A model generated the notes under the pieces. That model had not been told where the DNA came from. It saw only the letters and a list, made by a program, of their open reading frames with translations, and made no database searches. A stretch of DNA of 64,000 nucleotides from Mesorhizobium australicum (GTDB taxonomy: Bacteria; Pseudomonadota; Alphaproteobacteria; Rhizobiales; Rhizobiaceae). Shown here in pieces: positions 29,659 through 51,771 of the stretch. The translations under genes were made by a program, and so were the position numbers. The stretch covers positions 4,402,001 to 4,466,000 of the forward strand of contig NZ_FXBL01000004.1 of NCBI RefSeq assembly GCF_900177325.1. The letters are read 5' to 3'. Position 1 is the first letter of the stretch. Each line of letters starts with the position of its first letter.

Positions 29659-30720
29659 TCAGGACGCGTTGCTTGACGCCAACCGGTAGCGCGCCTGTTT
29701 AGGCGTCATGCCGAAATGTGCACGGAAAGCCGAGGTGAAGCTCGCCTGATGACGAAAGCCGACCGCATACGCCACAACCGCGATCGATGTTTCGTCTTTC
29801 GCCAGAAGCTCCATCGCACGATCCATTCGATGACGATTTCGATAGGCGAAGATCGTAGTCCCATAGAGCAGGCGAAAGCCGCTCTTCAGCTTGGTCGCGT
29901 TCGTGCCCAGTCGTCTGGCGAGCCTTGGAATGGTGAGTGATTCCGAAAAGTCGTTTGCCAGAATCTGTCGCGCCTGGTCGAACATCGTGAGTTCGCGCGC
30001 AGTGAAAACGATCGACTGCTCCTCGGCACTGCCCACCCGATGCAGGGCTTCGACCGCAAGGACGAGGAGTTCAATGACCCGAGCGGCGGCAAGCGGCAGA
30101 TCCCGCTGGGCAGTGAACCTGATCTCGAACAGATTCCGCAACCGGCGCAGGAACTCTGGATCGATCTTCTGTTCTGTCATGGCGACGGTCTCTTCGCCCG
30201 GTGACAGCAATTGTCTGACCACGCTCTGGCCAACGTCCATGCCGAAACTGTCTCTGAGCAGAGCGGGGCGGACATAAAAGCTCGCCATCCTGTACCTGCC
30301 GGGCTGGCAGACGACATCGTAGGCCATGCCCGTAGCTTGCTGGCAGACGATCAGCGAGACGTTGGACGTTGCAGTCGCGTCCCGCTCCTGAGGCAGCGAC
30401 AGTTCTACCGGCCCCTCGAGCAAAAGATGAAACTCGAGCAGCCCCTCGGCCACGACATGTTCCTGGCGGACCGCATAGTATTCGCAATCTGTAAGAACCA
30501 CGAATATGCCGTCCGCCGGCGAAAGAAACCGCCAGGATCCCTTGCCGTCGCTCGGCGGCAGATCGAAACACGAATAGCGCAGGCTGAGATGCGTATCGAC
30601 CTGCTGGGACGCTTCCGCGGAGGAGGCAAGATTCCGGAAGGCCGCCGCGACCGTTCCCTCCCGTCCCCCGAAATAGGCGCGGAACAATCCTCCTCTGCCT
30701 GCCACAGCCTCGCGGTCCAT
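29659..30720 (-). CDS. AraC-family transcriptional regulator
   Basis: A 353-residue regulator. The C-terminal 100 residues hold two helix-turn-helices: TIPRLARRLGTNATKLKSGF, then AVGFRHQASFTSAFRAHFGM followed by TPKQARYR, the AraC/XylS signature. The N-terminal 240 residues would be the effector domain and resemble no sugar-binding cupin I can name. The start is ATG 30720 with GGAG seven bases upstream; 31 more codons to the left have no site. It is the last gene downstream of ubiX-like, kynA, kynU and the aldehyde dehydrogenase, so it likely controls this operon. The effector may be kynurenine, anthranilate or tryptophan. Confidence 0.88.
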   Translation of the reverse strand: MDREAVAGRGGLFRAYFGGREGTVAAAFRNLASSAEASQQVDTHLSLRYSCFDLPPSDGKGSWRFLSPADGIFVVLTDCEYYAVRQEHVVAEGLLEFHLLLEGPVELSLPQERDATATSNVSLIVCQQATGMAYDVVCQPGRYRMASFYVRPALLRDSFGMDVGQSVVRQLLSPGEETVAMTEQKIDPEFLRRLRNLFEIRFTAQRDLPLAAARVIELLVLAVEALHRVGSAEEQSIVFTARELTMFDQARQILANDFSESLTIPRLARRLGTNATKLKSGFRLLYGTTIFAYRNRHRMDRAMELLAKDETSIAVVAYAVGFRHQASFTSAFRAHFGMTPKQARYRLASSNAS

Positions 30721-30820
30721 CGTCTTCTCCAGCCCGTTCTCACGGCCAGGCCAACGTATCACCGTTTGGGCTTGCTTTGCATCGCGGACAAGAGTGGCCG
30801 GTCTTCCGGACAAGATCGGC

Positions 30821-31408
30821 TCAGACAGAGTCTTTCCATCGGCGCGTCAGGCCGTTTTCGATGCCGAAGATATCGAGCACCCGACCTATCGAGTGATCGA
30901 TCATCTCGGCAAGGCTGTCCGGCCGGGCGTAGAAAGCGGGCAGCGGCGGCGCGATGATGGCGCCGATTTCGGCAAGTTGCACCATGGTCCTGAGATGGCC
31001 GAGGTGGAGCGGCGTCTCCCGCACCATGAGCACGAGCGGTCGGCGCTCCTTCAGCGTCACGTCGGCGGCGCGTGTCAGCAGACCCGAGGTCACGCCGGTG
31101 GAAATCTCCGACATGGAACGAACCGAACATGGCGCGACGACCATGCCCATGGTTCGGAAGGAGCCCGAGGATATCCCGGCGCCGATGTCGGTCTGCTGAT
31201 ACCAACGGCCCGCAAGCGCCCGCACCTCGGCCACCTTGTAGTCCGTCTCGTGCGCAAGCGTGATTTCGGCCGAGCGCGACATGACCAGATGCGTCTCGAT
31301 TCCGGCATCACGCAACGCTTCCAGCATCCGCACGCCATAGATAACGCCAGAGGCGCCCGAGATTCCGACGACGATGCGCCCTGCCCGCACGGAAGTGCCT
31401 TCGCTCAC
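30821..31408 (-). CDS. UbiX/Pad1-like flavin prenyltransferase
   Basis: A 195-residue flavoprotein-fold protein: [20 protein letters not shown] at the N-terminus, [17 protein letters not shown] in the middle and [20 protein letters not shown] near residue 130-150, all UbiX signatures. UbiX makes prenylated FMN, the cofactor of UbiD decarboxylases. A UbiD-family gene lies on the opposite strand at 35005. Its start overlaps the kynA stop by ATGA, so it is made with tryptophan dioxygenase. A housekeeping role in ubiquinone synthesis is less likely in this setting. Confidence 0.9.
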
Positions 31409-32238
31409 AGGTCGGTCCTGACGTGCCAGAGCTCGGGAAACAGCTCGACGTCGAGCATCCGTCGCAGATAGGACACGCCGCCGGTGCCGCCGGTGCCGCG
31501 CTTGAAACCGATGATGCGCTCCACTGTCGTCACGTGATTGAAGCGCCAGCGGCGAAAATAGTCCTCGAAATCGACGAGCTTCTCGGCCAGTTCGTAGAGC
31601 GGCCAGTAGCGCTGCGGATCGCCGTAGACCTGTCGCCAGGCTTCCTGAACCTTCGGATTGTTCGTTCTCGCCTGCCTGATGTCCGCACGCGGTTCGTCGC
31701 CCACATCGAAGCCGTTGCGCTTCAAAAGCGCGATCGCCTCGTCATAGATGGAATTCTCTGACAGGATGACTTCCAGTTGCGCGGAGATCTCGGGCCTGTG
31801 CTCGTGAGGTTTCAGCATCGCCAGATTGCGGTTTCCCGCAAGGTACTCGATGGCGCGATACTGCCAGGACTGGAACCCCGAGGACTGGCCGAGTGAGGGC
31901 CGCATGATGTTGTATTCCGACGGCGTCATGGTCCTGAGCACGTCCCACGCGGAATTCAGCTGATCAAAGATGCGAGCCACACGCGTCAGCATCTTGAAGG
32001 CCGGCTGCAGGCGGTCTTCGCGCACCGCCTTCGCGGCCGATCTCATTTCATGGATGGCGAGCATCATCCACAGCTCCGAGGTCTGGTGCTGGATGATGAA
32101 CAGCAGTTCGTCATGCGCATCGGACAAGGGTTCCTGCGCACCTAGAATTCTGTCGAGATGCAGATAATCACCGTAGGACATCTTGCGGGCGAAGGACATC
32201 TCCGCGCCCTCGGCCGAGGGATCATACTGTTTCGTCAT
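31405..32238 (-). CDS. kynA: Tryptophan 2,3-dioxygenase
   Basis: A 277-residue haem enzyme that opens the indole ring of L-Trp to N-formylkynurenine. The family blocks are clear: [18 protein letters not shown] near the start, [18 protein letters not shown] with the substrate-contact His, [16 protein letters not shown], and [20 protein letters not shown] followed by GGTGGVSYL with the axial His. ATG 32238 overlaps the kynU stop by ATGA; a longer start has no site. This is the first pathway step, in the order ALDH-kynU-kynA-ubiX-AraC. Confidence 0.96.
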
Positions 32239-33428
32239 GTCACGGAGGCCTTGCGATGGTATTCGGGTCTGTCCCACAGTCGCTTGTCCAGCACGTCGGC
32301 GAGCACTCCAATTGCCCGATCGATATCGGCGGCGCCGAGATAAAGCGGCGTAAAGCCAAAACGCATGGAATCCGGCGCCCGGAAATCGCCGATGACGCCC
32401 CGCGCGATCAGCGCCTGCATGACGGCATAGGCATGCGGATGTCTGAACGAGACCTGGCTGCCGCGCACAGCCGGGTTGCGCGGACTGCCGAGTTCGAGTC
32501 CGGGACAGGCGGTCTCCACGCCGGCGATGAAGCGTTCGCTCAGTTCGATGGACTTCGCCCTCACATCGCGCATCTCGACGCCCTCCCAGACATCCAGAGC
32601 GGCCTCCAGCACCGTGAGCGCAATGACAGGAGGCGTGCCTACGCGCATCCTCTCGATGCCCGGCGCCGGGCGGTAGTCAAGATCGAAGGCAAAGGGCGCT
32701 TCGTGCCCCATCCAGCCTGAAAGGCTGGGACGCGCGCGGTCGGCGTGGCGCGGCGCGACATAGATGAATGCCGGCGCGCCGGGACCGCCGTTCAGATATT
32801 TGTAGGTGCAGCCGACGGCGAAATCGACGTCCGCCGCCGTAAGGTCGACATCGACCGCGCCGACGGAATGCGCCAGGTCCCAGATCGCGAGCGCGCCAGC
32901 CCGATGCGCCTTGGCGGTGATGGCCTTCATGTCGTGCCGGCGGCCGGTGCGATAGTCGACTTCGGTGATCATCGTCGCCGCGACCGTCTCGTCTATGCTC
33001 TTCTCCACCTCTTCGGGGCCGACCACCTTCAGTTCGTAGCCGCGTCCAAGCGAGGTCAGGAGACCTTGGGCGATGTAGAGGTCGGATGGGAAATTGCCAT
33101 CGTCAGAGAGCACCACGCGACGATCGGGGTTGAGCTCCAGCGCAGCGGAAAGCGCCTGGTAGACCTTGATGGACAGTGTATCTCCCATCACCACGGTTCC
33201 CGGCGCGGCGCCGATCAGTTTTGCAACTCGGTCGCCGACCTTGCGCGGCTGCACATACCAGCCAGCGGTGTTCCAACCGCGGATGAGCTGTTCGCCCCAC
33301 TCCTGCATCAACATGGCTGACAGCCTCTCGCGAGCAGCAAGCGGAAGCGGCCCGAGCGAGTTGCCGTCCAGATAGACGACACCCTCCGGCAGATGGAACG
33401 CTGCGCGCGTCTCGTCAAAATCAGTCAT
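32235..33428 (-). CDS. kynU: Kynureninase
   Basis: A 397-residue PLP enzyme cleaving kynurenine to anthranilate and alanine. [10 protein letters not shown] is at 20-29, Asp184 and His187 in [10 protein letters not shown], and the Schiff-base Lys210 in [13 protein letters not shown]. It is 15 bases after the aldehyde dehydrogenase stop and overlaps kynA by four bases. Making anthranilate here connects directly to the anthranilate-CoA ligase at 43760. Confidence 0.96.
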
Positions 33429-33443
33429 GCCGACCCCTTCCGA

Positions 33444-34835
33444 TCAAGCTGCGGCCGAGCGTATCACGATCGCCTTCTTGCGCAGGAAACGTCGGAAGCC
33501 GCCATAGCCGTAGCGGCTGCCGCCGAGGCCGGAATAGCCAAACGCGTTCTTCTCTGCCAGGGCGCCGACCCCACCCATGGTATCGAAATCGTTGATCCAC
33601 ATGCCGCCCGCATTGATGCGGCTGCCGAGTTCGATCGCCTTTGCCTCGTCGCCGATCACCGCCGCCGACAGGCCGAACTCCGTGTCATTGGCAAGCCTTA
33701 CCGCTTCCTCCTCGGTGTCGAATGCCATGATCGGCACAATCGGGCCGAAGGTCTCGTCGTGCATCACGGCCATGTCCTGCGTCACGTTTGTCAAGACCGT
33801 CGGCTCGCACCAGAGCCCGCCACTGTGTTCGACGATATTGCCACCGGTCAACACCTTGGCCCCTTTGGCGATTGCGTCGTCAAGCTGGCCGCGCAGGATA
33901 TCCGCCTGGCGTGCGAAGATGATCGGGCCGAGCTCGCCATTGCGGATGTCCTCGATGTTCATGGCAAGCGCCTTCATGCGGGCGACGACACGTTCGCACA
34001 CCGCGTCGTAGACGCCCCGCTGCACATAGACGCGTTCTATCGCGCAGCAGAGCTGGCCCGAATTCTCTACCGCTCCTCGCACCAGAATCTCGGCGGCGAA
34101 GTCCGGCTCCGCGCTGTCCAGCACCACGGCCGGATCGCTGCCGCCCAGTTCGAGGAAGACGGGCTTGAACTGCGACGCCGCTCGTTCCTGGACCTTGCGG
34201 CCGGTGCGCACAGATCCGGTGAAGACAAGCGTGTCCGTGGCATCGACGATCATCGCGCCTGTCTCGCCGTCACCTTCGAACACGTCGAGCACGTCGCGCA
34301 GATGCTCCACCTCCGCGATGGCCGCACGGAAGGGCTTGATGAAGCGCGGCGTCACCTCCGACGGCTTGATCGCCACCGCAGAGCCGGCAAGCAGGGCCGT
34401 GATGGCATCGATCATGCACAGGATGAGCGGGTAGTTCCACGGCGAGATGATACCCACGAGTTCGTAGGGCACATGCTGTTGCTGGAAGCGCAGCGTCGGG
34501 TCGGACGAGTTGCCGCTCGCTTCGGCCAGCGCTTCGGCCGCCGTGGCGCAACGCATGCGCGTGATGCCCTTCAGTCCCTCTATTTCATTGACCGACCATT
34601 CGTAGCGGCCGGTGTCCGCGCAGAGGGCCTGGAGGATGGCATCGTAGTGCCTGTCTACCGCGTCGCACAGCTCCAGCATCGCCTTGACCCGGCCATCGAT
34701 GCCCAGCGCCAGCCATGCCGGCTGGGCAGCGCGAAGCTCCATGCAGCGCGCCATCAGTTCCTCACGGGAAAGCGGAGTAATCGCATAGTCGTTCGCGCCG
34801 GTGCGCGGATTGCGAATCTCAAGCATGCGGGTCAT
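33444..34835 (-). CDS. Aldehyde dehydrogenase
   Basis: A 463-residue NAD(P)-dependent aldehyde dehydrogenase. Asn134 is in SPWNYPLIL, the base Glu229 in LELGGSDP, and the nucleophile Cys263 or 264 in ENSGQLCCAIE. GAGG lies seven bases before ATG 34835. It is first in the kyn operon. The anthranilate-CoA route needs no aldehyde dehydrogenase that I know of. The 2-aminomuconate semialdehyde role of ALDH in the meta-cleavage kynurenine route would need a 3-hydroxyanthranilate dioxygenase, which is not seen. The substrate is therefore open. Confidence 0.9.
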   Translation of the reverse strand: MTRMLEIRNPRTGANDYAITPLSREELMARCMELRAAQPAWLALGIDGRVKAMLELCDAVDRHYDAILQALCADTGRYEWSVNEIEGLKGITRMRCATAAEALAEASGNSSDPTLRFQQQHVPYELVGIISPWNYPLILCMIDAITALLAGSAVAIKPSEVTPRFIKPFRAAIAEVEHLRDVLDVFEGDGETGAMIVDATDTLVFTGSVRTGRKVQERAASQFKPVFLELGGSDPAVVLDSAEPDFAAEILVRGAVENSGQLCCAIERVYVQRGVYDAVCERVVARMKALAMNIEDIRNGELGPIIFARQADILRGQLDDAIAKGAKVLTGGNIVEHSGGLWCEPTVLTNVTQDMAVMHDETFGPIVPIMAFDTEEEAVRLANDTEFGLSAAVIGDEAKAIELGSRINAGGMWINDFDTMGGVGALAEKNAFGYSGLGGSRYGYGGFRRFLRKKAIVIRSAAA

Positions 34836-34890
34836 CGTTGGTCCTCTTCAGTTGGCCGGAGGATGGCCGAGCGTTCCAATCCTGCAAAGA

Positions 34891-34910
34891 GGCACAATTC
34901 GCGTTGTGCC
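34891..34910. promoter_or_regulatory. Candidate operator between kyn operon and ubiD operon
   Basis: The 169-base divergent region contains a perfect inverted repeat, GGCACAA-TTCGCG-TTGTGCC, with 7-base arms and a 6-base spacer. It lies about 55 bases from the aldehyde dehydrogenase start and 95 from the ubiD start, well placed to control both. AraC proteins usually bind direct repeats, so an Lrp/AsnC or other regulator may be the partner. Confidence 0.5.
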
Positions 34911-35004
34911 GAATTCCAAAAAGTTTGGGCTGGCGCGACAAAAGCGCGGACTATTGCCCGCCGCGGCAAAACGATTAACTGGCAGGCTCGAACCGGAGAC
35001 GATC

Positions 35005-36333
35005 ATGCGGCCATTTGTCGATACCCTTGCCCAGCAGGGCGAACTCTCGGTGGTACGCAGACCCGTCGATCCGCGCCATCAGCTTGCCGCCGTCACCAAG
35101 GCAGTCCAGAAGGCGGGTGACCAAGCCGTCCTGTTCGAAAGGGTCGAGGGCACGAGTTTTCCGGTCGTCTCCAACCTCTACGGCAGCCATGAGCGCCTCC
35201 GCCGCCTGATCGGAGCCGGTGACAAGACATTCTGCCAAAGGTGGATCGAACTGACGGATGCCTGCATCGCCGGCCGCGACGCCGACGTGCTGGAGCGGGC
35301 TCCCATCTCCATAGAATCCGAATTCGTGAGCGGAACGCTCTCGGACCTCCCCGCCGTCACCTATCACGAGCGCGATGCCGGACCTTATTTCACCTCGGCG
35401 ATCTTCCTGGCGCGCGAGCCGGACAGCGGCGTGCCCAATCTGTCGTTCCACCGCTCCATGTATGTGTCGGACGCTGAACTGAGGGTGAGGCTCGGCTCCA
35501 CCCACGACCTGGCTCGCTATCAGGTCAAGGCAGAATCGCGCGGAGAGGCGCTGCCCGCCGCACTGCTTCTGTCCTGTCCGCCGGAAATCTTCCTCGCCGC
35601 CTGTGCCTCTCTCCCCTACGACGCGTCGGAACTGGTGATGGCTGCACAGGTCAGCGGCGGAAAGATTCCGATGCGGCGCTGCAAGACGATCGATCTCGAG
35701 GTTCCGGCCTCGGTCGACATCGTCGTGGAAGGCCGCTTCCTGCCCAACGTGAAACGGCCGGAAGGTCCGTTCGGCGAATTCATGGGCAACTATGTTGGCG
35801 TAGGCGACAACCACGTCTTCGAGATCAGCCACGTGAGCTACAGGCCCGATGCGATCTTCCACGCGCTCGTCTGCGGCTCGCCGGAAGACCTTCGGCCTCT
35901 CGAGGCCGTCACGGCGGCGCGTGTCTATCGTCACGTCGCGGCACAGGTGCCGGGCGTGATCGACGTCTGCTGCCGGCCGAACGTGATGATCTCCATCATC
36001 AAGATTCGTAAGACCTACGAGGGCCAGGGCAAACACGCGATCCTCGCGGCGCTCGGCTCCTATCTCGACTACAACAAGGTTGTGATCGTGGTCGACGAAG
36101 ACGTGGATATCTACGATCTTGATGATGTCATGTGGGCTTATATGACGCGCGGAAGGGCGGATACTCGCGCCATGATTCTCAACGACATTCCGGGCTTCTA
36201 CCGTGACCCGCACAAGGACCATTGGGGGCGGCTCTGCATCGACGCGACCATGCCGTTCGGACGCGAAGCGGAATTCGCGCGCAAAACCATCCCCGGCGAG
36301 GACGCGATAGATTTGCGCGAATGGCTCGCGTGA
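35005..36333 (+). CDS. UbiD-family prenylated-FMN-dependent decarboxylase
   Basis: A 442-residue member of the UbiD family of reversible decarboxylases. The conserved block RPEGPFGEFMGNYVG holds E253 and E258, and VVDEDVDIYDLDDVMWA near 365-380 is the second hallmark. ATG 35005 has GGAG about six bases upstream. It is divergent from an operon that contains its cofactor enzyme UbiX, so the pair is meant to work together. Nearby genes make and use anthranilate and not 4-hydroxybenzoate; ubiquinone synthesis is unlikely. Possible substrates are aromatic or unsaturated acids arising from tryptophan. Family firm, reaction unknown. Confidence 0.9.
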   Translation: MRPFVDTLAQQGELSVVRRPVDPRHQLAAVTKAVQKAGDQAVLFERVEGTSFPVVSNLYGSHERLRRLIGAGDKTFCQRWIELTDACIAGRDADVLERAPISIESEFVSGTLSDLPAVTYHERDAGPYFTSAIFLAREPDSGVPNLSFHRSMYVSDAELRVRLGSTHDLARYQVKAESRGEALPAALLLSCPPEIFLAACASLPYDASELVMAAQVSGGKIPMRRCKTIDLEVPASVDIVVEGRFLPNVKRPEGPFGEFMGNYVGVGDNHVFEISHVSYRPDAIFHALVCGSPEDLRPLEAVTAARVYRHVAAQVPGVIDVCCRPNVMISIIKIRKTYEGQGKHAILAALGSYLDYNKVVIVVDEDVDIYDLDDVMWAYMTRGRADTRAMILNDIPGFYRDPHKDHWGRLCIDATMPFGREAEFARKTIPGEDAIDLREWLA

Positions 36334-36373: not shown

Positions 36374-36913
36374 ATGAGCGCTTTTCCCGCTCACCCGGCC
36401 TGGGACTTCGTCGTCGGCCTCTACGGCCAGCCGGAGGTCGCGCCAGCCTGCCTCGAATTGCAGGAGCGGCATGGGATCGATGTGACGATGATGCTGTTCT
36501 GCCTTTGGCGCGGCTCGATCGACGGGCAGCCGCTCGGTGCCCGGATGGCGCCGCTCGCTCAGGCAGCTCGAACATGGCACATGTCGGCGGTCTTGCCGAT
36601 GCGCGCAGCCCGACGCTGGCTGAAGGAAGACGCGAAACGTCTCGACGATCGGGCGGGGACATCGCTCTATAAGACCGTGCTCTCCGCCGAGATCGACTGC
36701 GAGCACGGAGAACTGCTGATGCTCGCGCGGCTTGCCGAGTTGCAGTGCGACACACCTGACGCAGGCTCGCCGCAAGCAATGGCCGAAAACCTTGCCACCT
36801 TCTTCAAAGAGACGGGAACCAGCCTCGCCGAGGGCGACCGGGCTGCCATCACGGCAATCCTCTACGGGGCCGGTGCGGCAGAGGAAATCCGGCGCGTTCT
36901 GCCGGTCGCATAA
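36374..36913 (+). CDS. TIGR02444-family protein of unknown function
   Basis: A 179-residue soluble, mostly helical protein. The N-terminal block AWDFVVGLYGQPEVAPACLE and then MLFCLWRGSIDG matches the TIGR02444 (DUF2390) family. The family is widespread in proteobacteria and has no established reaction that I know of. It follows the UbiD gene by 40 bases on the same strand and precedes a RidA gene, so all three may share a transcript. Confidence 0.75.
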   Translation: MSAFPAHPAWDFVVGLYGQPEVAPACLELQERHGIDVTMMLFCLWRGSIDGQPLGARMAPLAQAARTWHMSAVLPMRAARRWLKEDAKRLDDRAGTSLYKTVLSAEIDCEHGELLMLARLAELQCDTPDAGSPQAMAENLATFFKETGTSLAEGDRAAITAILYGAGAAEEIRRVLPVA

Positions 36914-37002: not shown

Positions 37003-37383
37003 TTGAAGAACCGCATCTTTTCCGGAGCGCCGTCGGAAGACTTCGCCGGCTACGCCAAGGCGGTGATCGACGGTTCGACGATCTATGTCTCGGGCACCAT
37101 GGGACAGGACCCGGCAACCGGCGCCATGCCGGAAAGCGCGTCGGACCAGGCGCGCAATGCGTTGGCCTCGATCGGCTCGGCGCTGGCCAAGGCCGGAGCC
37201 AGCCTGAAGAATGCCGTGGCCTGCCGCGTGTATATTACCGATGCGAGCTATCTAAAGGACATCGCGCCCGTGCTGGGCGAAGTTTTCCGAGACATACGCC
37301 CTACGAACACGCTGCTGATCTGCCAGTTGCCCGCACCAGGCGCCAAGGTCGAGATCGAGGTGACCGCCTCGACACGAGCCTAG
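37003..37383 (+). CDS. RidA/YjgF/YER057c-family protein (lacks the usual catalytic Arg)
   Basis: A 126-residue single-domain Rid protein. IYVSGTMGQDPATG and AVACRVYITDASY are family blocks. In deaminating RidA proteins the motif before the last strand is PAR; here it reads RPTNTLL, so the Arg that holds the substrate carboxylate is replaced. By that rule it belongs to the Rid groups without proven enamine deaminase activity. The start is TTG 37003 behind GAGGAG. It is last in the ubiD group and converges on livM-like. A role on an imine or enamine intermediate is still possible. Confidence 0.85.
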   Translation: MKNRIFSGAPSEDFAGYAKAVIDGSTIYVSGTMGQDPATGAMPESASDQARNALASIGSALAKAGASLKNAVACRVYITDASYLKDIAPVLGEVFRDIRPTNTLLICQLPAPGAKVEIEVTASTRA

Positions 37384-37395
37384 CGGGCGGCGCTT

Positions 37396-37429
37396 ATACC
37401 CGGAAAGAGAGATCTCACTTTCCGGGTAT
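37396..37429. terminator. Bidirectional hairpin between RidA and LivM-like genes
   Basis: Perfect 12-base arms ATACCCGGAAAG (37396-37407) and CTTTCCGGGTAT (37418-37429) flank a 10-base loop holding the palindrome GAGATCTC. It lies between convergent genes, where a shared terminator is expected. The stop codon and last codons of the LivM-like gene lie inside it. There is no long T-run on either side, so its efficiency is uncertain. Confidence 0.65.
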
Positions 37430-38719
37430 CAGGCCTTGCGGCCTGAATCGCAGCATCACGATCAGGATCACGCCCATCACCACCAGCCGCATGTGCGCGG
37501 CGCTTTCGATCAGGTGCTGCTTCAGCGGTCCATCGGTCATACCGGACGTGGCCAGAGCCATCAGGCTGTTGCCCCATGGCTCGACCTGTACCCATAGATA
37601 CCAGATCAGGAAGCCGCCCAGCACCGCGCCCAGGTTGCTGCCCGAGCCACCGACAACGACCATGACCCAGATCAGGAACGTATAGCGCAAGGGCTGGAAT
37701 GCGCCGGGCGTCAACTGGCCTTCCAGGGTGGCGAGCATAGCGCCCGAGATACCCAGAACGGCGCAGCCGAGAACGAATATCTGCAAGTGCCGGCGGGTGA
37801 CGTCCTTGCCCATTGCGGCTGCCGCGACCTCGTTGTCGCGGATCGCCCGCATCATTCGCCCCCAGGGCGAATGCAATGCCGCCTCCGACAGCCAGATCAG
37901 CACCAGCAGCACCGCCAGGAACATCGCCGCATAGAGCAGCTTCACCACCACCGCCGAAGCGGCGACCGGGTCCGCCCCGATGCTCGAGGCAAAAGCCAGG
38001 AAGCTCTGGCTTGCCTGGAGATCGACTTCGAACGGCACCGGCCGCGGAATGTCGACGATGTTCTTGACGCCGCGGTCCAGCCAGTCTTCGTTCTTCATCA
38101 CTGCGATGACGATTTCGGCAATGCCGAGCGTGGCGATCGCCAGATAATCCGAGCGCAGCCCGAGCGCCGTCTTGCCGATCAGCCAGCCCGCGCCGGCGGC
38201 AAGAAGAGCACCGACCGGCCAGGACAAAAGAACCGGAAGACCAAGGCCCCCAATATTACCCTGGAGGGCCGGATTGATTGCCTCTACGGCGGTGACCGCA
38301 GGATCGAGAACCCACCGATAGGCGAAGAAGCCGATCCCGAGAGCGATGGCGAGCAAAAGAATCCGCCAGCCGCTTTTCTTCGGCATTCGTCTGTAGAACA
38401 GCGCTCCGGCTGCGATGACGGCAGCGCCGAACAGAAGAGCCGCGGCGATCCTGAAGCCGCCGGCCTGCCAGGCACCGGAAACCGGATCGAGCGCCACCAG
38501 GACGGCCGCAAGGCCGCCAAGCGCCACGAAACCCATGGTTCCGACATTGTAGAGCCCGGCATAGCCCCACTGAATATTGACGCCGAGCGCCATGACCGCC
38601 GAAATCAGGCCCATATTGACGATGGTAAGCGCCGCGTTCCAGCTCTGCGTGAGGCCGGTGATGACGATCAATGCGCCGACCGCGAGGAACAGCAGCGTGT
38701 TGCGACCCGCCACGCTCAT
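37415..38719 (-). CDS. Branched-chain-type ABC importer permease, LivM-like
   Basis: A 434-residue permease with about ten membrane segments. ALGVNIQWGYAGLYNVGTMG (about 45-64) and GLRSDYLAIATLGIAEIVIA are LivM hallmarks, and RAIRDNEVAAAAMGKDVTRR is the cytoplasmic loop that meets the ATPase. The start ATG 38719 overlaps the LivH stop by ATGA; the frame continues left only as the neighbour out of frame. It is the last gene of the Liv-type set. Length exceeds the usual 330-420 owing to an insert at about 85-145. Confidence 0.92.
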   Translation of the reverse strand: MSVAGRNTLLFLAVGALIVITGLTQSWNAALTIVNMGLISAVMALGVNIQWGYAGLYNVGTMGFVALGGLAAVLVALDPVSGAWQAGGFRIAAALLFGAAVIAAGALFYRRMPKKSGWRILLLAIALGIGFFAYRWVLDPAVTAVEAINPALQGNIGGLGLPVLLSWPVGALLAAGAGWLIGKTALGLRSDYLAIATLGIAEIVIAVMKNEDWLDRGVKNIVDIPRPVPFEVDLQASQSFLAFASSIGADPVAASAVVVKLLYAAMFLAVLLVLIWLSEAALHSPWGRMMRAIRDNEVAAAAMGKDVTRRHLQIFVLGCAVLGISGAMLATLEGQLTPGAFQPLRYTFLIWVMVVVGGSGSNLGAVLGGFLIWYLWVQVEPWGNSLMALATSGMTDGPLKQHLIESAAHMRLVVMGVILIVMLRFRPQGLIPGK

Positions 38720-41265: not shown

Positions 41266-41285
41266 CAGCTCAAGACTGTTCCGGC

Positions 41286-42511: not shown

Positions 42512-42693
42512 ACTGGCTCCCATAACTTCCCTCTCAGTATTTGCAGGATGGCAAGGACGACCGTCCGGTGCATCCAGTTCTGGCTTGCACTACTCTATGT
42601 CGACGCCATTTGGGATGGCAAAACACCAGTTCCCGAAAACGGTCGTCAGTTTTTGTGATTTCGGTCCTTTGCTTTCATTCGTGGATCGTCGCC

Positions 42694-43521: not shown

Positions 43522-43599
43522 GGGGCCCTCCCTTTCGGCAACGTGCAATAGCAATGGCCGGACATCCCCGGCCACGTCAACAGAACTCTCAAAAAAACT

Positions 43600-43614: not shown

Positions 43615-43759
43615 ATTCGGCCCCATGAGAGCCTTCGTGGTGAGTGGAACAACTGGCGCGGACACAACGCGTGCGAAAGAGCCGAACCTCGATCGAGGTA
43701 GAACGGCCACGCATCAAGCGACGCTGCCGTTCGCGCGGCCGTGGGCTCATGGAGAACAA

Positions 43760-45379
43760 ATGCTCGGGCAATCTGCACACATCGACACGTTCGCTCGGGA
43801 CAATCTCCCGCCCCAGGACCAATGGCCGGATTTCCTGCTCGACGGCTTCGACTATCCCGAACAGATGAACGCCGCGGTCGAGTTGACCGACCGGATGGTC
43901 GAAAAGGGTTTCGGCGACCGGACGGCGCTGATCGGCAACGGACGGCGGCGCACCTACAAGGAGCTTTCCGACTGGACCAGCCGCATCGCGCATACGCTCG
44001 TAGAGGACTACGGCGTGAAACCCGGCAACCGGGTGCTGATACGTTCGGCCAACAATCCGGCGATGGTCGCCTGCTGGCTCGCGGCTACCAAGGCCGGCGC
44101 GGTGGTGGTCAACACCATGCCCCTGCTCCGCGCAGGAGAATTGGCCCAGATCGTCGACAAGGCCGAAATCTCCCTGGCGCTGTGCGACACCCGTCTGATG
44201 GACGAGATGCTCGCCTGCGCGAAGGACAGTGCCTTCCTGAAACGCGTGGTCGGGTTCGATGGCACCGCCAACCACGATGCGGAGCTCGACCGCGCGGCTC
44301 TCGACAAGCCGGTACGGTTCGATCCCGTGGACACAGGGCGCGATGACGTGGCGCTCCTCGGCTTTACCTCCGGCACGACGGGGATACCCAAGGCCACGAT
44401 GCATTTCCACCGCGACCTGCTCATCATCGCGGACGCCTATGCGAAGGAAGTGCTCAAGGTCACACCCGAGGACATCTTCGTCGGCTCACCGCCGCTCGCC
44501 TTCACCTTCGGCCTGGGCGGCCTCGCGATCTTTCCGCTTCGCTTCGGGGCGGCGGCGACATTGCTCGAGCAGGCGACGCCGCCGAACATGATCTCGATCA
44601 TCGAGAACTACCGTGCCACCATCTCCTTCACTGCGCCGACGGCCTACAAGGCGATGCTGAAGGCGATGGACGGCGGAGCGGATCTGTCATCGCTGCGCAT
44701 CGCCGTGTCGGCCGGCGAAACCTTGCCCGGGCCGGTCTTCGAGGAGTGGACACGCAAGACAGGCAAGCCGATCCTCGACGGGATCGGCGCGACGGAAATG
44801 CTGCACATCTTCATTTCCAACCATCTCGACGACTGCAAGCCCGCATGCACCGGCAAGCCGGTCGGCGGCTACGAGGCGATCATCGTGGACGAGAACATGA
44901 ATGAAGCGCCGCGGGGCACGGTCGGAAGGCTGGCGGTGCGAGGGCCAACCGGTTGCCGCTACATGGCGGACGAACGCCAGCGCGACTACGTGCGCAACGG
45001 CTGGAATCTCACCGGCGACAGCTTCTTTCAGGACGAGGACGGCTTCTTCCATTTCGCCGCGCGATCGGACGACATGATCGTCAGCGCCGGCTACAACATC
45101 GCCGGACCGGAAGTCGAGGCGGCGCTGCTGTCGCACCCGGATGTCGCCGAATGTGCGGTCATCGGCGTGCCGGATCCGGAGCGCGGCCAGATCGTGGAAG
45201 CGCATGTCGTACCGGCCGAAGGCGTGGAACGCGACGCTCGGACGATCAAGCGGCTGCAGGATCACATCAAGGCGACGATCGCTCCCTACAAATATCCCCG
45301 CTCCATCAAATTTACCGATTCTCTTCCGAAAACGCAGACCGGAAAGATCCAGCGTTTCCGCCTTGCCGCGGAAGTCTGA
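43760..45379 (+). CDS. Anthranilate (2-aminobenzoate)-CoA ligase
   Basis: A 539-residue AMP-forming acyl-CoA synthetase. The P-loop-like motif is GFTSGTTGIPKATMHFH (about 200-216), LDGIGATEMLH is the A5-type motif and the catalytic Lys is in KTQTGKIQRF at the C-terminus. It resembles benzoate/anthranilate ligases over the DGFDYPEQMNAAVELTDRM start. ATG 43760 has GGAG five bases upstream. The downstream anthraniloyl-CoA monooxygenase and upstream kynureninase fix anthranilate as the most likely substrate; benzoate or salicylate remain possible by sequence alone. Confidence 0.9.
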   Translation: MLGQSAHIDTFARDNLPPQDQWPDFLLDGFDYPEQMNAAVELTDRMVEKGFGDRTALIGNGRRRTYKELSDWTSRIAHTLVEDYGVKPGNRVLIRSANNPAMVACWLAATKAGAVVVNTMPLLRAGELAQIVDKAEISLALCDTRLMDEMLACAKDSAFLKRVVGFDGTANHDAELDRAALDKPVRFDPVDTGRDDVALLGFTSGTTGIPKATMHFHRDLLIIADAYAKEVLKVTPEDIFVGSPPLAFTFGLGGLAIFPLRFGAAATLLEQATPPNMISIIENYRATISFTAPTAYKAMLKAMDGGADLSSLRIAVSAGETLPGPVFEEWTRKTGKPILDGIGATEMLHIFISNHLDDCKPACTGKPVGGYEAIIVDENMNEAPRGTVGRLAVRGPTGCRYMADERQRDYVRNGWNLTGDSFFQDEDGFFHFAARSDDMIVSAGYNIAGPEVEAALLSHPDVAECAVIGVPDPERGQIVEAHVVPAEGVERDARTIKRLQDHIKATIAPYKYPRSIKFTDSLPKTQTGKIQRFRLAAEV

Positions 45380-45474: not shown

Positions 45475-45999
45475 GTGAGCCGTGACAGCACGATCAAGAC
45501 AATCTCGCCTGACTGGGTGGACGGCGAGACAAAGGTGCTGGAAGCGCCCGCCGACCACGGCCGGGAACTGCGCCTGTGGCTCAGGCTGCTGACCTGCTCG
45601 ACGCTGGTCGAGACCGAGATCCGCCGCCGTCTGCGCGAGCAGTTCGACTGCACGCTGCCGCGTTTCGATCTCATGGCACAGCTCGAACGCGCCAGGGCCG
45701 GCATGGTGCTCGGCGAACTTTCCAAGCGCATGATGGTGTCGCCCGGCAACATGACCGCCCTGGTCGAGCGGCTTGCCGAAAGCGGCCATGTCAGCCGCAC
45801 TGTCTCGCCGACCGACAGACGTGTCCAGATCATCGCGCTGACCCCTTTCGGCCGCGCCGAGTTCAAGAAGATGGCGGCCGCGCACGGCGATTGGATCGCC
45901 GAACTTTTTGGCGATCTGGCCGCACGGGACAGCGAAACGCTGTTCGACAAACTCGGCAAGCTCAAGAGCTCCGTCGTCACGGCGCTGGGGCGGAGCTGA
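45475..45999 (+). CDS. MarR-family transcriptional regulator
   Basis: A 174-residue winged-helix regulator. The recognition region is LGELSKRMMVSPGNMTALVE (about 79-98) and the wing is VSPTDRRVQIIALTPFGRAE, the MarR signature. GTG 45475 has AGGAG 12 bases upstream, a long spacing. It stands between the ligase and the monooxygenase genes, reading the same way. MarR proteins of aromatic-CoA clusters often sense the CoA thioester, which would fit anthraniloyl-CoA; this is inference. Confidence 0.9.
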   Translation: MSRDSTIKTISPDWVDGETKVLEAPADHGRELRLWLRLLTCSTLVETEIRRRLREQFDCTLPRFDLMAQLERARAGMVLGELSKRMMVSPGNMTALVERLAESGHVSRTVSPTDRRVQIIALTPFGRAEFKKMAAAHGDWIAELFGDLAARDSETLFDKLGKLKSSVVTALGRS

Positions 46000-46039
46000 G
46001 CCGCATCCCGGGCTGTCAGCCGTAGTCGATCCTGCCAAT

Positions 46040-46091: not shown

Positions 46092-46167
46092 GTTTTTTTC
46101 GGCCTGATCCATGGTCCGGTATGACCAGGCTGGGCTTCGGTCCGGTGATGAAGCGGCGGAGGACGGC

Positions 46168-48495
46168 ATGCGCATTGTTTGCATCGGCGGCGGACCGGCC
46201 GGGCTCTATTTCGCACTGCTGATGAAGAAGCAGCACCCTGCACACCAGGTCACCGTGGTCGAGCGCAACCGTCCCTTCGATACCTTCGGCTGGGGTGTCG
46301 TGTTTTCCGACGCGACCATGCAGTCGATGCGGCAATGGGATCCGCAGACGGCGCAGGCCATCGAAATCGCCTTCAACCATTGGGACGACATCGAGCTGGT
46401 GTTCAAGGGGCGCAGGATCCGCACCACCGGCCATGGCTTTGTCGGCATCGGCCGCAAGAAGATGCTGAACATCCTGCAGGAACGCTGCATCGAGCTTGGT
46501 GTCGAACTGGTCTTCGAACGCGACGTGCAAAGCGACGAGGAATTCGCGGATGCTGACCTCGTCATTTCGTCCGACGGTGTCAATTCGCGCATCCGGGCAA
46601 AGTATGCCGAGGTCTTCAAGCCGGACATGCTGATGCGGCCGAACCGCTATATCTGGCTCGGCACGGACAAGCGCTTCGACGCCTTCACCTTCGATTTCCG
46701 CCGCACCGAGCATGGCTGGTTCCAAGCTCACATCTACCGCTTCGACGACACGACCTCGACGTTCATCGTCGAGACCACCGACGAGGTGTTCAAGGCGCAC
46801 GGCATCGACAAGATGGATCAGGACCAGTCCGTCGCATTCTGCGAGAACCTGTTCGCCGAAACGCTCGACGGCCACCGCCTGATGACGAATGCGCAGCATC
46901 TGCGCGGCTCGGCCTGGCTGAACTTCGGGCGCCTGATCTGCGAGAAGTGGAGCCACTTCAACGGCAACAGTCACGTCGTCCTGATGGGCGACAGCGCCCA
47001 TACCGCCCATTTCGCGATCGGTTCCGGCACCAAGCTCGCCATTGACGACGCGATCGAGCTGACGCGGCAGTTTGATCTCATCGGCCACGACAAGGCCAGC
47101 ATTCCGGCCGTGCTGGCGGCCTATGAAGAGATCCGGCGCGTCGACGTCGCGCGCATCCAGAACGCGGCGCGGAACGCGATGGAGTGGTTCGAGGTCGTTG
47201 GCACACGCTACGCCGACACGCTCGAGCCCGAACAGTTCATGTATTCCATGCTGACGCGTTCCCAGCGCATCAGCCATGAAAACCTGCGCCTCCGCGACAG
47301 GGACTGGCTCGAAGGATACGAGCGCTGGTTCGCGGCGCGCGCCGGCGTCGACCCGGCCCCGAACGGCGCCGTGCCTTCGCCCATGTTCACGCCGTTCCGG
47401 ATCAGGGGCCTGACGTTGAAGAACCGCATCGTCGTCTCGCCGATGGCGATGTATTCGGCGACGGACGGCGTGCCCGATGATTTTCACCTGGTTCATCTCG
47501 GCTCCCGGGCCATGGGCGGCGCGGCACTCGTCTTTCCCGAAATGACCTGCGTGTCGCCCGACGCCCGCATCACACCCGGCTGCCTGGGTCTTTGGAACGA
47601 TGCCCAGTCTGCCGCCTTCAGGCGTCTGGTGGATTTCATCCATACACAGACGCCGGCCAAGATCGGCCTCCAGCTCGGCCATGCCGGCCGCAAGGGCGCC
47701 ACCAAGGTCGCCTGGGAAGGCATCGACCAGCCGCTGGAGCATGGCGGCTGGCCACTGATCTCCGCATCCGCACTGCCCTATCTGAAGACGTCCGTCGTTC
47801 CGCGCGCCATGACGCGCGACGACATGGACCGGGTGCTGGCCGATTTCATCGCTGCGACGGAACGTGCGCGCGACATCGGCTTTGACATGCTCGAACTACA
47901 CGCGGCGCATGGATATCTTCTGTCCAGCTTCCTTTCGCCGCTCACCAATCTGCGCGACGACGAATATGGCGGCAGCCACGAGAACCGCGCCCGGTTTCCG
48001 CTGGAAGTGTTCCGCGCCGTTCGCGCTGTCTGGCCGCAGGACCGGCCGATGTCCGTGCGCTTGTCTGCCCATGACTGGTACGAAGGCGGCAACACGCCGG
48101 AAGACGCGGCCATCTTCGCGCAGATGTTCAAAGACGCCGGTGCCGATATGATAGATTGCTCCTCCGGCCAGGTGGTGAAGGAAGAGCGGCCGGTCTACGG
48201 GCGCCTGTTCCAGACGCCTTTTTCGGACAAGATCCGCAATGAGATTCAGGTGCCCACGATCGCTGTCGGCGCCATTTCGGAGGCGGACCATGCCAATTCG
48301 ATCATTGCCGCCGGACGGGCGGATCTCTGCGCCGTTGCCCGCCCGCATCTCGCAGATCCGTTCTTCGTCATGCACGAAGCAGCCAGGATCGGATATGCCG
48401 AGCAACCTTGGCCGAAGCAGTATCATTCGGCACGCGCGCAATATGTGAACAATCTGGCACGTGCTGCAGCTCCCGCCATAGTGAGCAAACCATGA
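46168..48495 (+). CDS. Anthraniloyl-CoA monooxygenase/reductase (two-domain; salicylyl-CoA 5-hydroxylase-like)
   Basis: A 775-residue fusion. Residues 1 to about 390 are a class-A flavin monooxygenase ([38 protein letters not shown] is the second FAD motif). From about 405 it is an Old Yellow Enzyme/NADH:flavin oxidoreductase domain ([53 protein letters not shown]). This is the layout of 2-aminobenzoyl-CoA monooxygenase/reductase (EC 1.14.13.40), which hydroxylates and reduces the ring without cleaving it. GGAGG lies five bases before ATG 46168. Salicylyl-CoA hydroxylases share the fold, but the anthranilate genes around it favour anthraniloyl-CoA. It heads a five-gene operon. Confidence 0.93.
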
Positions 48496-49268
48496 CAGCG
48501 CGCCATGCTTTGGTTACCGGCGCCGGCAGCGGCATCGGCAAGGCCATCGCGATCGCGCTGGCCGCCAGGGGCCACCGCGTCAGCCTCGCCGGCCGACGCG
48601 AGACGCCACTCAAAGCCGTGCAGTCAGAGATCGCCGCGGCCGGCGGCGAGGCCCTGGTTCTCGACGGCTTCGACGTCACCGACGCGTCTCTCGTCGAGGG
48701 CGGTGTCGCCAGAGCTGTAGGCCGTTTCGGGGACATCGCCGTGCTGGTCAACTGCGCAGGCGAAGCGCCTTCCGCGCCCTTCGACAAGACGGATCCCGCA
48801 TTGTGGAGCCGGGTGATCTCGATCAACCTTACCGGCGTCTACCTGGTTACCCACGCAGCGATCGCTTCCGTGAGGCGCGCCGGCAGCGGGCGCATTGTCA
48901 ACGTGGCGAGCACGGCGGGCCTCACTGGCTATCCTTATGTCTCGGCCTATTGCGCGGCCAAGCATGGCGTCGTCGGGCTGACGCGCGCGCTGGCGCTGGA
49001 ACTGGCCCGCAGCGACGTCACCGTCAACGCGGTATGCCCCGGCTTTACCGATACGCCGCTGCTGGACAACGCGGTCGAGACCATCATCGGCGCGACGGGC
49101 CGCTCGGCGGCTGAGGCCCGAACGAGCCTCACCCGCGCCAACCCGCAGGGGCGGCTGGTCACGCCGCAGGAAGTCGCCGACGCGGTGCTCTGGCTCACGT
49201 CGGAAAACGCGACCGCGATCACCGGTCAGGCGATTGCCGTCGCCGGCGGCGAAGTTCTGGGAGGATGA
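48492..49268 (+). CDS. Short-chain dehydrogenase/reductase
   Basis: A 258-residue classical SDR. The cofactor motif is [13 protein letters not shown] (8-20), NCAG is at about 87-90 and the catalytic YCAAK (Tyr-x-x-x-Lys) at about 153-157, with Ser in VASTAGL. ATGA overlap with the monooxygenase stop ties it to the pathway. It probably acts on the oxo group of 2-amino-5-oxocyclohexene-carbonyl-CoA or on a later 3-hydroxyacyl-CoA. Confidence 0.9.
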
Positions 49269-49270
49269 CA

Positions 49271-50113
49271 ATGACCAATCCGATGCAAGACAAGAAGCGA
49301 CCCTTTCGGAGCCACCGGCCGAAGCACTTCCTGCTCGAAACCGACGATGATGGCCGCGTCGCCACCATTACGCTCAACCGACCCGAAAAAAAGAACCCGC
49401 TCACGTTCGAGAGCTACGAGGAGCTGACCGACCTGTTCCGGGCGCTTGGCCGCGCCGACGATGTGCGGGTGGTGGTGCTGACCGGCGCGGAGAACAATTT
49501 CTCCTCGGGCGGCGATGTCTTCGACATCATCGAGCCACTGACCAGGATGTCGATGCCGGACCTGCTCGACTTCACGCGCATGACCGGCGACCTCGTGCGC
49601 CAGATGCGCGCCTGTCCGCAACCGATCATCGCTGCCGTCGACGGAATCTGCGCCGGGGCGGGCGCCATTCTTGCGATGGCCGCGGACCATCGCATTGCCA
49701 CGCCGGAGGCAAAGACAGCCTTTCTGTTCACGCGTGTCGGCCTCGCCGGCGCCGACATGGGCGCCTGCGGCATCCTTCCGCGCATCATCGGCCAGGGCCG
49801 CGCGGCAGAACTCTTGTTCACCGGCCGAGTGATGACCGCTGCCGAAGGCCATGCCTGGGGCTTCTACAACGCGCTGCACGACCGAGCCGCCCTCCTCGGC
49901 GCAGCACAGGCATTTGCGCGCAACCTCGCCGACGGCCCGTGGTTCGCGCACGCGATGACGAAGAAGATGCTGGACCAGGAGTGGGCCATGGGCATCGACC
50001 AGCTCATCGAGTCGGAGGCGCAGGCACAGGCGATCTGCATGGCCACCGGCGACTTCCGCCGCGCCTTCGAGGCTTTCGCCGCCAAGACTAAGCCCGTTTT
50101 CGAGGGACGCTAG
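49271..50113 (+). CDS. Enoyl-CoA hydratase/isomerase-family protein
   Basis: A 280-residue crotonase-fold protein. [12 protein letters not shown] and [17 protein letters not shown] build the two oxyanion loops, and [20 protein letters not shown] is the family block where hydratases carry the second acid. I start at ATG 49271, which has GGAGG six bases upstream; ATG 49265 overlaps that site. It lies between the SDR and the acyl-CoA dehydrogenase, so ring hydrolysis or hydration of an unsaturated CoA ester is likely. Confidence 0.9.
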
Positions 50114-50116
50114 ATC

Positions 50117-51340
50117 ATGGCGTCGTCTTCCGCACCGGCCCGCACCCCAGCTCGCGATCATCTGGACTGGCCCTTTTTCGCTGACGACCATCGCGTGCTG
50201 GCCGGCGAACTGGACGCCTTCGTCGCCAGAGGTGGGCTGGGCGAGATCGACCATGCCGACGCAGACGGTGCCTGCAGGAGCCTGGTCATAAGGTTGGGCG
50301 ACGCCGGCTTCCTGCGCCACTGCGTGCCGGCCGCCTTCGGTGGCGCGTCCGAGGCGATCGACAGCCGCTCGCTGTGCCTCATCCGCGAGACGCTTGCATT
50401 CCACGACGGCCTCGCCGACTTCGCCTTCGCCATGCAGGGGCTCGGCACCGGTGCCATCAGCCTGTCGGCCTCCGAGGAACTCAAGCGGGCGATCCTGCCG
50501 AAAATCGCCAGGGGCGAACTGATCTCCGCCTTCGCGCTGACCGAACCCGAAGCCGGTTCAGACGTGGCGGCGATGAGCAGCAGCGCCCGCCGAGCCGGCG
50601 ACCATTATGTGCTCGACGGCGAAAAGATCTTCATCTCCAACGGCGGCATTGCCGACGTCTATAGCGTCTTCGCCCGCACCGGCGAGGCTCCCGGAACACG
50701 TGGCATCTCGGCCTTCGTCGTCTTTGCCGACACGCCCGGCTTCGAGATTGCCGAGCGCATCGAGACCATCGCGCCGCATCCGCTCGCCCGCATCCGCTTC
50801 GACAATTGCCGCATCCCTGTTTCGCAGCTTCTCGGACAGCCCGGTGAAGGCTTCAAGATCGCCATGCGCACGCTCGACATCTTTCGTCCCTCGGTCGCGG
50901 CCGCGGCGATCGGCTTTGCCCGGCGCGCCCTCGACGAGGCCGTGGCACATGCCAGATCGCGCAGGATGTTCGGGGCAACGCTGGCGGACCTGCCCACTGC
51001 GCAGAGCACCCTTGGCGAAATGGCGACGGCGATCGACACGGCCTCGCTGCTCACGGTGCGTACGGCCTGGCGACGCGACGTCCAGAAGCTGCCGATCACC
51101 CGTGAAGCTGCAATGGCCAAGATGACGGCGACGGAAAACGCGCAATGGGTCATCGACCAGGCGCTACAGATGTTCGGCGGACGCGGCGTGCGCGTGGGCG
51201 AAATCACGGAACGCCTCTACCGCGAAATCCGCGCGTTGCGCATCTACGAAGGCGCCACGGAGGTGCAAAAGCTCATCATCGGTCGTGAGCTGATGAAAGC
51301 GGCATCGCCGCGCTCCCCCGCAGAAAAGGACCGCGTATGA
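50117..51340 (+). CDS. Acyl-CoA dehydrogenase
   Basis: A 407-residue FAD enzyme. [18 protein letters not shown] (about 135-152) binds flavin, [17 protein letters not shown] lies mid-protein, and the catalytic Glu is kept in [17 protein letters not shown]. It follows the hydratase by three bases and overlaps the RidA gene by ATGA. It would form the alpha,beta double bond on a ring or opened-ring CoA ester. Confidence 0.92.
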
Positions 51341-51771
51341 CCGCCCCTCCCCGCAAGGCCGAGACGCCGAGCAACATACACCGTGTTCTGCAACCCGAGG
51401 GCTGGAAGCAGCCGCTGGGATACGCGAACGGCATTGAAGCCCGGGGCCGCATCCTCTTCATCGGTGGTCAGATCGGCTGGAATGCGCGCTGCGAATTCGA
51501 AACCGACGACTTCGTGGCACAGGTGCGTCAGACCCTGCTGAACATCGTCGACGTGTTGAAAGCGGGCGGCGCTGGGCCGCATCATATCACTTCGATGACC
51601 TGGTATTTCACCGACAAGAAGGAGTATGTCGACAACCTGCGCGCGATCGGCCAAGCCTATCGTGAGGTCATCGGCCGCCATTTCCCCGCCATGGCTGCCA
51701 TGCAGGTCGTCGCGCTGGTCGAGGACCGTGCGAAGATCGAGATCCAGGCGACCGCGGTCGTGCCGGAGTAG
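51337..51771 (+). CDS. RidA/YjgF/YER057c-family protein (lacks the usual catalytic Arg)
   Basis: A 144-residue Rid protein. [16 protein letters not shown] and [10 protein letters not shown] are family blocks. The segment that reads PAR in deaminating RidA is [10 protein letters not shown] here, so the Arg is Met. It differs strongly from the copy at 37003, so it is not a recent duplicate. Last in the anthraniloyl-CoA operon, coupled by ATGA. The ring amino group must leave as ammonia through an enamine/imine, which is where a Rid protein could act, if this type can. Confidence 0.88.

Follow-up and report, generated by a model that had tools for sequence, protein, structure and literature searches.

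Co-located UbiD and kynurenine/2-aminobenzoyl-CoA modules in Mesorhizobium australicum, with tryptophan dioxygenase and kynureninase genes in the UbiD operon

A 64,000-nucleotide stretch of the Mesorhizobium australicum genome (hereafter the window) carries an island in which genes for a tryptophan route through kynurenine and 2-aminobenzoyl-CoA lie beside genes for a prenylated flavin mononucleotide (prFMN)-dependent decarboxylase of the UbiD family and a Liv-type importer. The interpretation preferred here, at a probability of roughly 0.7, is that these are two co-located modules and that the genes for tryptophan 2,3-dioxygenase (TDO) and kynureninase (KYNU) are co-regulated with the UbiD module. 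Genes were called and scanned with Pfam and NCBI family models, covering most genes between ~10 and 55 kb, with gene starts as predicted (Table 1). At the left end (20526-23488), a flavin oxidase (AOX) and a thiamine-diphosphate (ThDP) enzyme are encoded on the minus strand. An AraC-type regulator, UbiX, TDO, KYNU, and an aldehyde dehydrogenase (ALDH) form a minus-strand run (29659-34835) with gaps of at most 15 bases and two overlaps, TDO and KYNU being placed between ALDH and UbiX within the operon of the UbiD module. Divergent from this run on the plus strand are UbiD, a DUF2390 protein, and the deaminase RidA1, followed by five minus-strand genes for a Liv importer (37415-42523) and then an alpha/beta hydrolase. 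A plus-strand run (43625-51771) encodes an aryl-CoA ligase, a MarR-type regulator, a two-domain 2-aminobenzoyl-CoA monooxygenase/reductase (ABM), a short-chain dehydrogenase (SDR), an enoyl-CoA hydratase (ECH), an acyl-CoA dehydrogenase (ACD), and RidA2. Every gene named in the initial annotation (TDO, KYNU, an AFMID-type hydrolase, ligase, ABM, SDR, ECH, ACD, RidA, five Liv genes, AraC, and MarR) is present, but UbiX, ALDH, UbiD, DUF2390, and RidA1, which lie between them, had been passed over, as had AOX and the ThDP enzyme, which lie just outside the limits of 29659..51771 given there for the locus.

From the gene identities and their order we infer the following reactions. The module at 43.6-51.8 kb, with its MarR regulator, would together with TDO, KYNU, and the AFMID-type hydrolase constitute a tryptophan route, in which tryptophan would be converted to N-formylkynurenine, then to kynurenine, and then to anthranilate and alanine. 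Anthranilate would be activated to anthraniloyl-CoA and converted by the monooxygenase/reductase to 2-amino-5-oxocyclohex-1-ene-1-carbonyl-CoA, which would enter steps resembling beta-oxidation, with RidA2 helping deamination. The UbiD module (~20.5-42.5 kb, with the AraC regulator) would comprise UbiD, UbiX, ALDH, the flavin oxidase, RidA1, the DUF2390 protein, and the Liv importer, which would serve its substrate; the probable logic of this module is that an amine or amino-acid side chain is oxidised to an aldehyde and then to an aromatic acid, which would undergo prFMN-dependent decarboxylation. TDO and KYNU would have been inserted into its operon between ALDH and UbiX, and because of this insertion the opening of the tryptophan ring is probably co-induced with the UbiD module.

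The UbiD module with its importer recurs in stretch L133 of genome G106, which encodes the binding protein, LivG, LivF, LivH, LivM, RidA1, DUF2390, AOX, UbiD, ALDH, UbiX, and AraC. In this stretch ALDH directly adjoins UbiX, with neither TDO nor KYNU between them; the TDO-KYNU-ligase genes and ABM of this genome are on two other contigs (L137, L138). The Liv subunits of L133 are 81-87% identical to those of the M. australicum importer, and the binding protein is 87% identical to the copy in L133 and 91% to that in L158, the second composite island described below. The same two stretches contain close copies of ALDH (90% identity in L133, 88% in L158) and RidA1 (83% and 87%), 67% identical AraC copies within their UbiD modules, and DUF2390, which is also found near UbiD in L157. 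In a set of 80 ABM loci, each taken with flanks of up to 10 kb, no LivH, LivF, or binding protein reaches 50% identity and no LivM reaches 45%; one locus has LivG at 50% or above. The close copies in L133 and L158, and the lack of close LivH, LivF, LivM, or binding protein in any of the 80 ABM loci, indicate that the importer most likely belongs to the UbiD module. The idea that the tryptophan genes have their own importer should thus be dropped, the more interesting point being the presence of TDO and KYNU in the UbiD operon. By its neighbourhood the AraC regulator, too, goes with the UbiD module. The closest solved chain to UbiD, 6h6v, presumably an HmfF-type enzyme, scores only 212.7 bits; the two share the UbiD family and the motif EGPxGE (EGPFGE here), which we take to be the catalytic motif of UbiD. 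The lists of UbiD and AOX homologues (the best 120 of 1338 and the best 120 of 177, respectively) have 23 contigs in common as matched by size, compared with a mean of 0.6 at shifted sizes. In a second type of UbiD context, UbiD relatives in L151 (G279) and L169 (G841) directly adjoin hydantoinase/oxoprolinase A and B genes.

The same composite island as in M. australicum is found in the Shinella-like genome G543 (L158/L178, contig C16), with hydrolase, AOX, AraC, UbiX, TDO, KYNU, ALDH, UbiD, DUF2390, RidA1, and Liv genes, and with ligase, MarR, ABM, SDR, ECH, ACD, and RidA2 in the ABM half. Fifteen of the 22 genes are 84-91% identical between the two islands; the remainder are AOX (73%), AraC (67%), hydrolase (58%), DUF2390 (57%), SDR (75%), MarR (76%), and RidA2 (78%). 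Another contig of G543 carries a second, ordinary TDO-KYNU-ABM set (KYNU 54%, TDO 75% identity). In trees of selected loci, filtered by identity and coverage, the two composites pair as sisters by TDO (100/99) and by KYNU (100/100) but not by ABM, that of the G543 composite falling in a Shinella/Ensifer clade (100/100). Forcing the two composite ABMs together yields a p-AU of 0.023; the corresponding value for the ligase is 0.36. The UbiD-TDO-KYNU half therefore seems not to share its whole history with the ABM half. A plasmid of Paracoccus (L152) has TDO and a piece of KYNU beside AraC, ALDH, UbiD, AOX, RidA1, and UbiX in another order, with several of the genes in pieces in that record and the TDO outside the clade of the two composites. 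These are the three cases of TDO or KYNU beside UbiD (M. australicum, L158, L152) among the 24 UbiD stretches examined (the M. australicum stretch, L133-L136, L151-L154, and L157-L171), of which the fetched ones are 5 to 21 kb long, more distant neighbours being beyond view. In Sinorhizobium sp. GL2, N182_27765 (AOX) and N182_27795 (UbiD) are on one contig with room for five genes, as in G543; judging by this locus-tag spacing, GL2 probably also carries TDO-KYNU by UbiD.

The joining of the kynurenine route to the 2-aminobenzoyl-CoA route is common in the family, well supported, and chemically ordinary. Among 151 family genomes, and with no correction for relatedness or genome size, TDO is present in 76 (a count that takes in G102, G009, and G084 with their fragmentary TDO matches) and ABM in 89 at E <= 1e-150, 80 of these above the curated cut-off. 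Both are present in 72 genomes (Fisher p 2.5e-21), on the same contig in 49 and on separate contigs, where distance is undefined, in 23. The distance is within 25 kb in 41 of the 49 (40 without G102) and within 10 kb in 32; a simple geometric estimate puts the chance of such closeness at ~1% for a pair of unrelated genes in a genome of 5 Mb. Proximity in 41 of 72 genomes, together with the lack of a competing anthranilate route in the M. australicum genome, supports the join, which the initial annotation proposed from gene neighbours and which is now a repeated pattern. The 80 ABM loci contain relatives of SDR at 50% identity or above in 74, of ECH in 62, ACD in 66, RidA2 in 77, and MarR at 40% or above in 43; KYNU is found in 16 and TDO in 3, and in M. 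australicum both are more than 10 kb from ABM. TDO, KYNU, ligase, hydrolase, and ABM all occur in one locus in Mesorhizobium L026 and L085, in L144, and in Ensifer L155. The Ensifer plasmid combines this set with another Liv importer, so that the set is a common arrangement. The island appears to be accessory in its genus, because G030 and G129, of the same genus, have no match to TDO, ABM (E <= 1e-150), or UbiD (E <= 1e-40). The ligase of L075, from a record titled Bacillus subtilis SK6B4, pairs in the tree with that of Pseudochrobactrum L080 (100/100), so that the record is probably mistitled or its assembly contaminated.

The TDO of the island is the sole TDO match in the genome, and the ABM, which holds FAD-binding and Oxidored_FMN domains, is the sole copy above the NF006101 cut-off. 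The hydrolase is probably an N-formylkynurenine formamidase, to judge from its sequence and neighbours: it contains HGGYW, an instance of the HGGxW that we take to mark the AFMID family, as well as GHSAGG; 11 of 16 fetched TDO-bearing stretches contain a relative; and in Azospirillum a relative directly follows kynU and kynA. In the solved-chain search, the two best matches are a putative esterase (283 bits) and a lipase (108 bits), with kynurenine formamidase 4e11 in third place at 59 bits. No KynB-type formamidase (TIGR03035) is found above cut-off in the genome (best 53.6 bits versus 223). The genome likewise contains no match to 3-hydroxyanthranilate 3,4-dioxygenase (TIGR03037), and the best of its four Rieske alpha subunits scores 113.5 bits against the anthranilate 1,2-dioxygenase model TIGR03228 (cut-off 672) and 96.6 bits against the AndAc model (cut-off 750). 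The initial annotation had envisaged a complete path from tryptophan to central metabolism. This is borne out only in part: the scanned genes (most of those between ~10 and 55 kb) include neither a thiolase nor a CoA transferase, and a second acyl-CoA-dehydrogenase-like gene, which lies downstream in relatives L012, L019, L023, L155, and L174, was not seen in the M. australicum island. In the rhizosphere of pea, according to passages of PMC3333776, the N-formylkynurenine formamidase gene of Rhizobium leguminosarum was up six- to ten-fold, which makes tryptophan breakdown plausible in that habitat.

The curated matches of TDO and KYNU, the solved-chain match of the ligase, and the gene neighbourhood point indirectly to anthranilate and anthraniloyl-CoA as the substrates of ligase and ABM, the ligase being probably a 2-aminobenzoate-CoA ligase. 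Several facts pull the other way. The NCBI name of NF006101 is bifunctional salicylyl-CoA 5-hydroxylase/oxidoreductase; the ligase scores 358 bits against TIGR02262, under the family cut-off of 375; and the NCBI model for the hydrolase is "hormone-sensitive lipase" (NF058665, 369 bits versus a cut-off of 320). Passages in the literature describe iad loci that yield anthranilate from indole-3-acetate, another possible source for ABM (PMC9613470), and Cupriavidus metallidurans CH34, which carries abm and kyn genes, does not grow on anthranilate according to a passage of PMC8879955. That ligase and oxygenase act on salicylate and salicylyl-CoA, as the family name would have it, is nevertheless very improbable given the strong co-location of ABM with TDO, the first step towards anthranilate, and the best solved match of the ligase, which is the anthranilate-CoA ligase 4wv3 (284 bits, versus 248 for a benzoate-CoA ligase). 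Passages of PMC3534580 report, moreover, that two ligases encoded in ligase-ABM pairs of Arthrobacter sp. Rue61a were demonstrated to be anthranilate-CoA ligases and that anthraniloyl-CoA was detected in its cells when grown on anthranilate. The scanned genes include no gentisate gene, the genome as a whole not having been searched for one. The island might also be a single tryptophan unit whose Liv importer carries tryptophan or kynurenine. The importer lies between the two halves in both M. australicum and L158, and the TDO-ABM island of Ensifer L155 also has a Liv-type importer, next to kynA, but its ATPases are only 33-37% identical to those of M. australicum and its other subunits have no listed match. 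With an 81-87% identical importer beside UbiD in L133, where TDO and KYNU are absent, and with the near-complete lack of its subunits from ABM loci, such a unit is improbable; it is compatible with the one-pathway alternative considered next, and the odds of the two overlap.

Two findings speak against keeping the modules apart. UbiD at 80% identity or above occurs in four stretches, three with adjacent TDO-KYNU in two gene orders and one, L133, without; and TDO is present in all 13 class-level carriers of the UbiD clade compared with 55 of 385 genomes overall (hypergeometric p 2.7e-12). The two modules may for these reasons be one pathway, in which the UbiD module turns a Liv-imported indolic or tryptophan-derived compound into the substrate of a specialised TDO-KYNU pair and the anthraniloyl-CoA module completes the breakdown. 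The placement of TDO-KYNU in the UbiD operon of M. australicum and G543 and beside UbiD genes in Paracoccus, the probably similar arrangement in GL2, and the second, ordinary set retained by G543 are in its favour. The clade is rare, with 13 of 385 class genomes (E <= 1e-140), 5 of 151 family genomes (E <= 1e-140), and 2 of 397 order genomes (E <= 1e-170), own genome included in each; the genus to which G075 belongs has one carrier among 21 genomes. The association with TDO holds without the own genome (12/12, p 1.9e-11) and by genus (7/7 versus 41/277, p 9.8e-7), and in the family set TDO is present in 4 of 5 UbiD carriers versus 76 of 151. Re-searching the 18 other UbiD carriers gave a TDO match in 17, fragmentary in G279, and none in G042. 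TDO lies 2.7 kb from the UbiD ortholog in G543, the sole such case; G911 has a TDO-like gene ~31 kb from UbiD on the same contig, and in the remaining matched carriers the two are on different contigs. A single pathway is possible but on balance unlikely, since 21 of the 24 UbiD stretches have no adjacent TDO, including the module-bearing L133, L153, L154, and L160, and since no intermediate can be named. In addition, three families account for 10 of the 13 class carriers, and ALDH, AOX, and UbiX relatives are lacking from 11 of 12 UbiD stretches at class level (L161-L171), so that the co-occurrence could reflect lifestyle or genome size. Doubtful as well is the more explicit form in which the UbiD/UbiX branch is part of tryptophan-family catabolism, importer, flavin oxidase, ALDH, and UbiD supplying a dedicated TDO-KYNU that feeds anthraniloyl-CoA ring reduction, with an indolic or kynurenine-like starting compound. 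Two co-located modules, with TDO-KYNU co-regulated with the UbiD module, remains the preferred interpretation.

The aerobic 2-aminobenzoyl-CoA (abm) pathway of Azoarcus evansii, reportedly the work of Schuhle et al. 2001, is among the closest known systems. As presented in passages of PMC4539516, it shares with the island a CoA ligase, a monooxygenase/reductase flavoenzyme, and later steps of beta-oxidation type; it differs, in a comparison by description and not by sequence, in that the M. australicum route is joined to TDO, KYNU, the formamidase, and the UbiD module. Arthrobacter sp. Rue61a has pairs of anthranilate-CoA ligase and ABM genes, but its anthranilate comes from quinaldine (passages of PMC3534580), whereas in M. 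australicum it would come from tryptophan. The genome of C. metallidurans CH34 has kyn, kynU, and abm genes (PMC8879955) and Cupriavidus necator JMP134 has abm genes (PMC2842291); the passages of these two papers describe no joined locus. The plasmid of Ensifer sp. PDNC004 (NZ_CP070354.1, L155) carries hydrolase, ligase, kynA, a Liv importer, kynU, MarR, ABM, SDR, ECH, and ACD, but its importer is a different one, its kynU is of another lineage (54%), and the stretch contains no UbiD, UbiX, ALDH, or AraC. The G543 composite is the same in make-up, but differs in that its hydrolase is beside AOX, no ThDP enzyme is seen, and its genome has the second set. Among the titles and abstract openings listed from the open-licence literature (for two of the queries the top 20 of 90 and the top 30 of 785 papers, nearly all on kynurenine in medicine), none points to a locus joining kyn and abm genes or to an operon of UbiD with TDO.

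Table 1. Predicted genes of the island and adjacent importer in window coordinates, with supporting models.
Feature	Position	Strand	Model or domain support
Flavin oxidase (AOX), amine-oxidase/protoporphyrinogen-oxidase superfamily, part of UbiD module	20526..21845	-	
ThDP enzyme, probably 2-oxo-acid decarboxylase	21842..23488	-	NF006052, 605 bits (cut-off 539)
Opp-type importer and Asp/Glu-racemase-like gene (25300-26001); module membership uncertain	23687..29621	+	
AraC-type regulator of UbiD module	29659..30813	-	PF12833
UbiX flavin prenyltransferase	30821..31408	-	TIGR00421, 249 bits (cut-off 109)
TDO	31405..32277	-	TIGR03036, 412 bits (cut-off 391)
KYNU	32235..33428	-	TIGR01814, 281 bits (cut-off 246)
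ALDH	33444..34835	-	PF00171; closest solved chain 4h7n, 435 bits
UbiD prFMN-dependent decarboxylase	34801..36333 (true start probably near 34990)	+	TIGR00148, 308 (cut-off 245)
DUF2390/TIGR02444 protein	36374..36913	+	Family matches
RidA-type enamine/imine deaminase 1 (RidA1)	37003..37383	+	PF01042
LivM permease	37415..38716 (start not fixed)	-	
LivH permease	38716..39726	-	PF02653
LivF ATPase	39731..40618 (start not fixed)	-	PF00005; best models UrtE and LivF, both below cut-off
LivG ATPase	40450..41301	-	PF12399
Liv-type periplasmic binding protein	41327..42523	-	PF13458
AFMID-type alpha/beta hydrolase, probable N-formylkynurenine formamidase	42694..43575	-	
Aryl-CoA ligase, probable 2-aminobenzoate-CoA ligase	43625..45379 (true start probably further in)	+	
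MarR-type regulator	45475..45999	+	PF01047
Two-domain ABM	46111..48495	+	NF006101, 1356 bits (cut-off 1078)
SDR	48408..49268 (start uncertain)	+	PF00106
ECH	49265..50113	+	NF006107, 470 bits (cut-off 330)
ACD	50117..51340	+	PF00441
RidA-type enamine/imine deaminase 2 (RidA2)	51337..51771	+	PF01042

By Pfam domains the Liv importer is complete in the Liv/HAAT sense, with two permeases, two ATPases, and one binding protein, the NCBI Liv models scoring below cut-off. The ThDP enzyme is 44-47% identical to ThDP enzymes of the UbiD loci L153, L154, L157, and L136, and no relative is seen in stretches L158 and L133. The racemase-like gene has 39-40% identical relatives near UbiD in L136 and L157, while the adjacent Opp-type binding-protein gene (23687-25303) is split by an in-frame TGA at 24356-24358 beyond which the frame continues, indicating a pseudogene or a sequencing error. 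At 12143-19227, an AAT-type acyltransferase/amidase gene (PF03417), which may process conjugated substrates, lies next to another Opp-type importer that has a binding protein to itself. Past the island, 51793-55437 encodes permeases resembling a putative B6 ABC importer and an SfnB/DszC-like flavin monooxygenase, both below cut-off. A tRNA scan and an Rfam scan at gathering scores gave no match in the window.

In many Rhizobiaceae, then, the 2-aminobenzoyl-CoA route, the key enzyme of which is named a salicylyl-CoA hydroxylase in databases, appears to be the final part of tryptophan breakdown. The comparison also exposes a conserved and little-studied UbiD module, with TDO-KYNU inside or beside its operon in a few genomes, and this placement is a concrete lead towards the substrate of the UbiD module.

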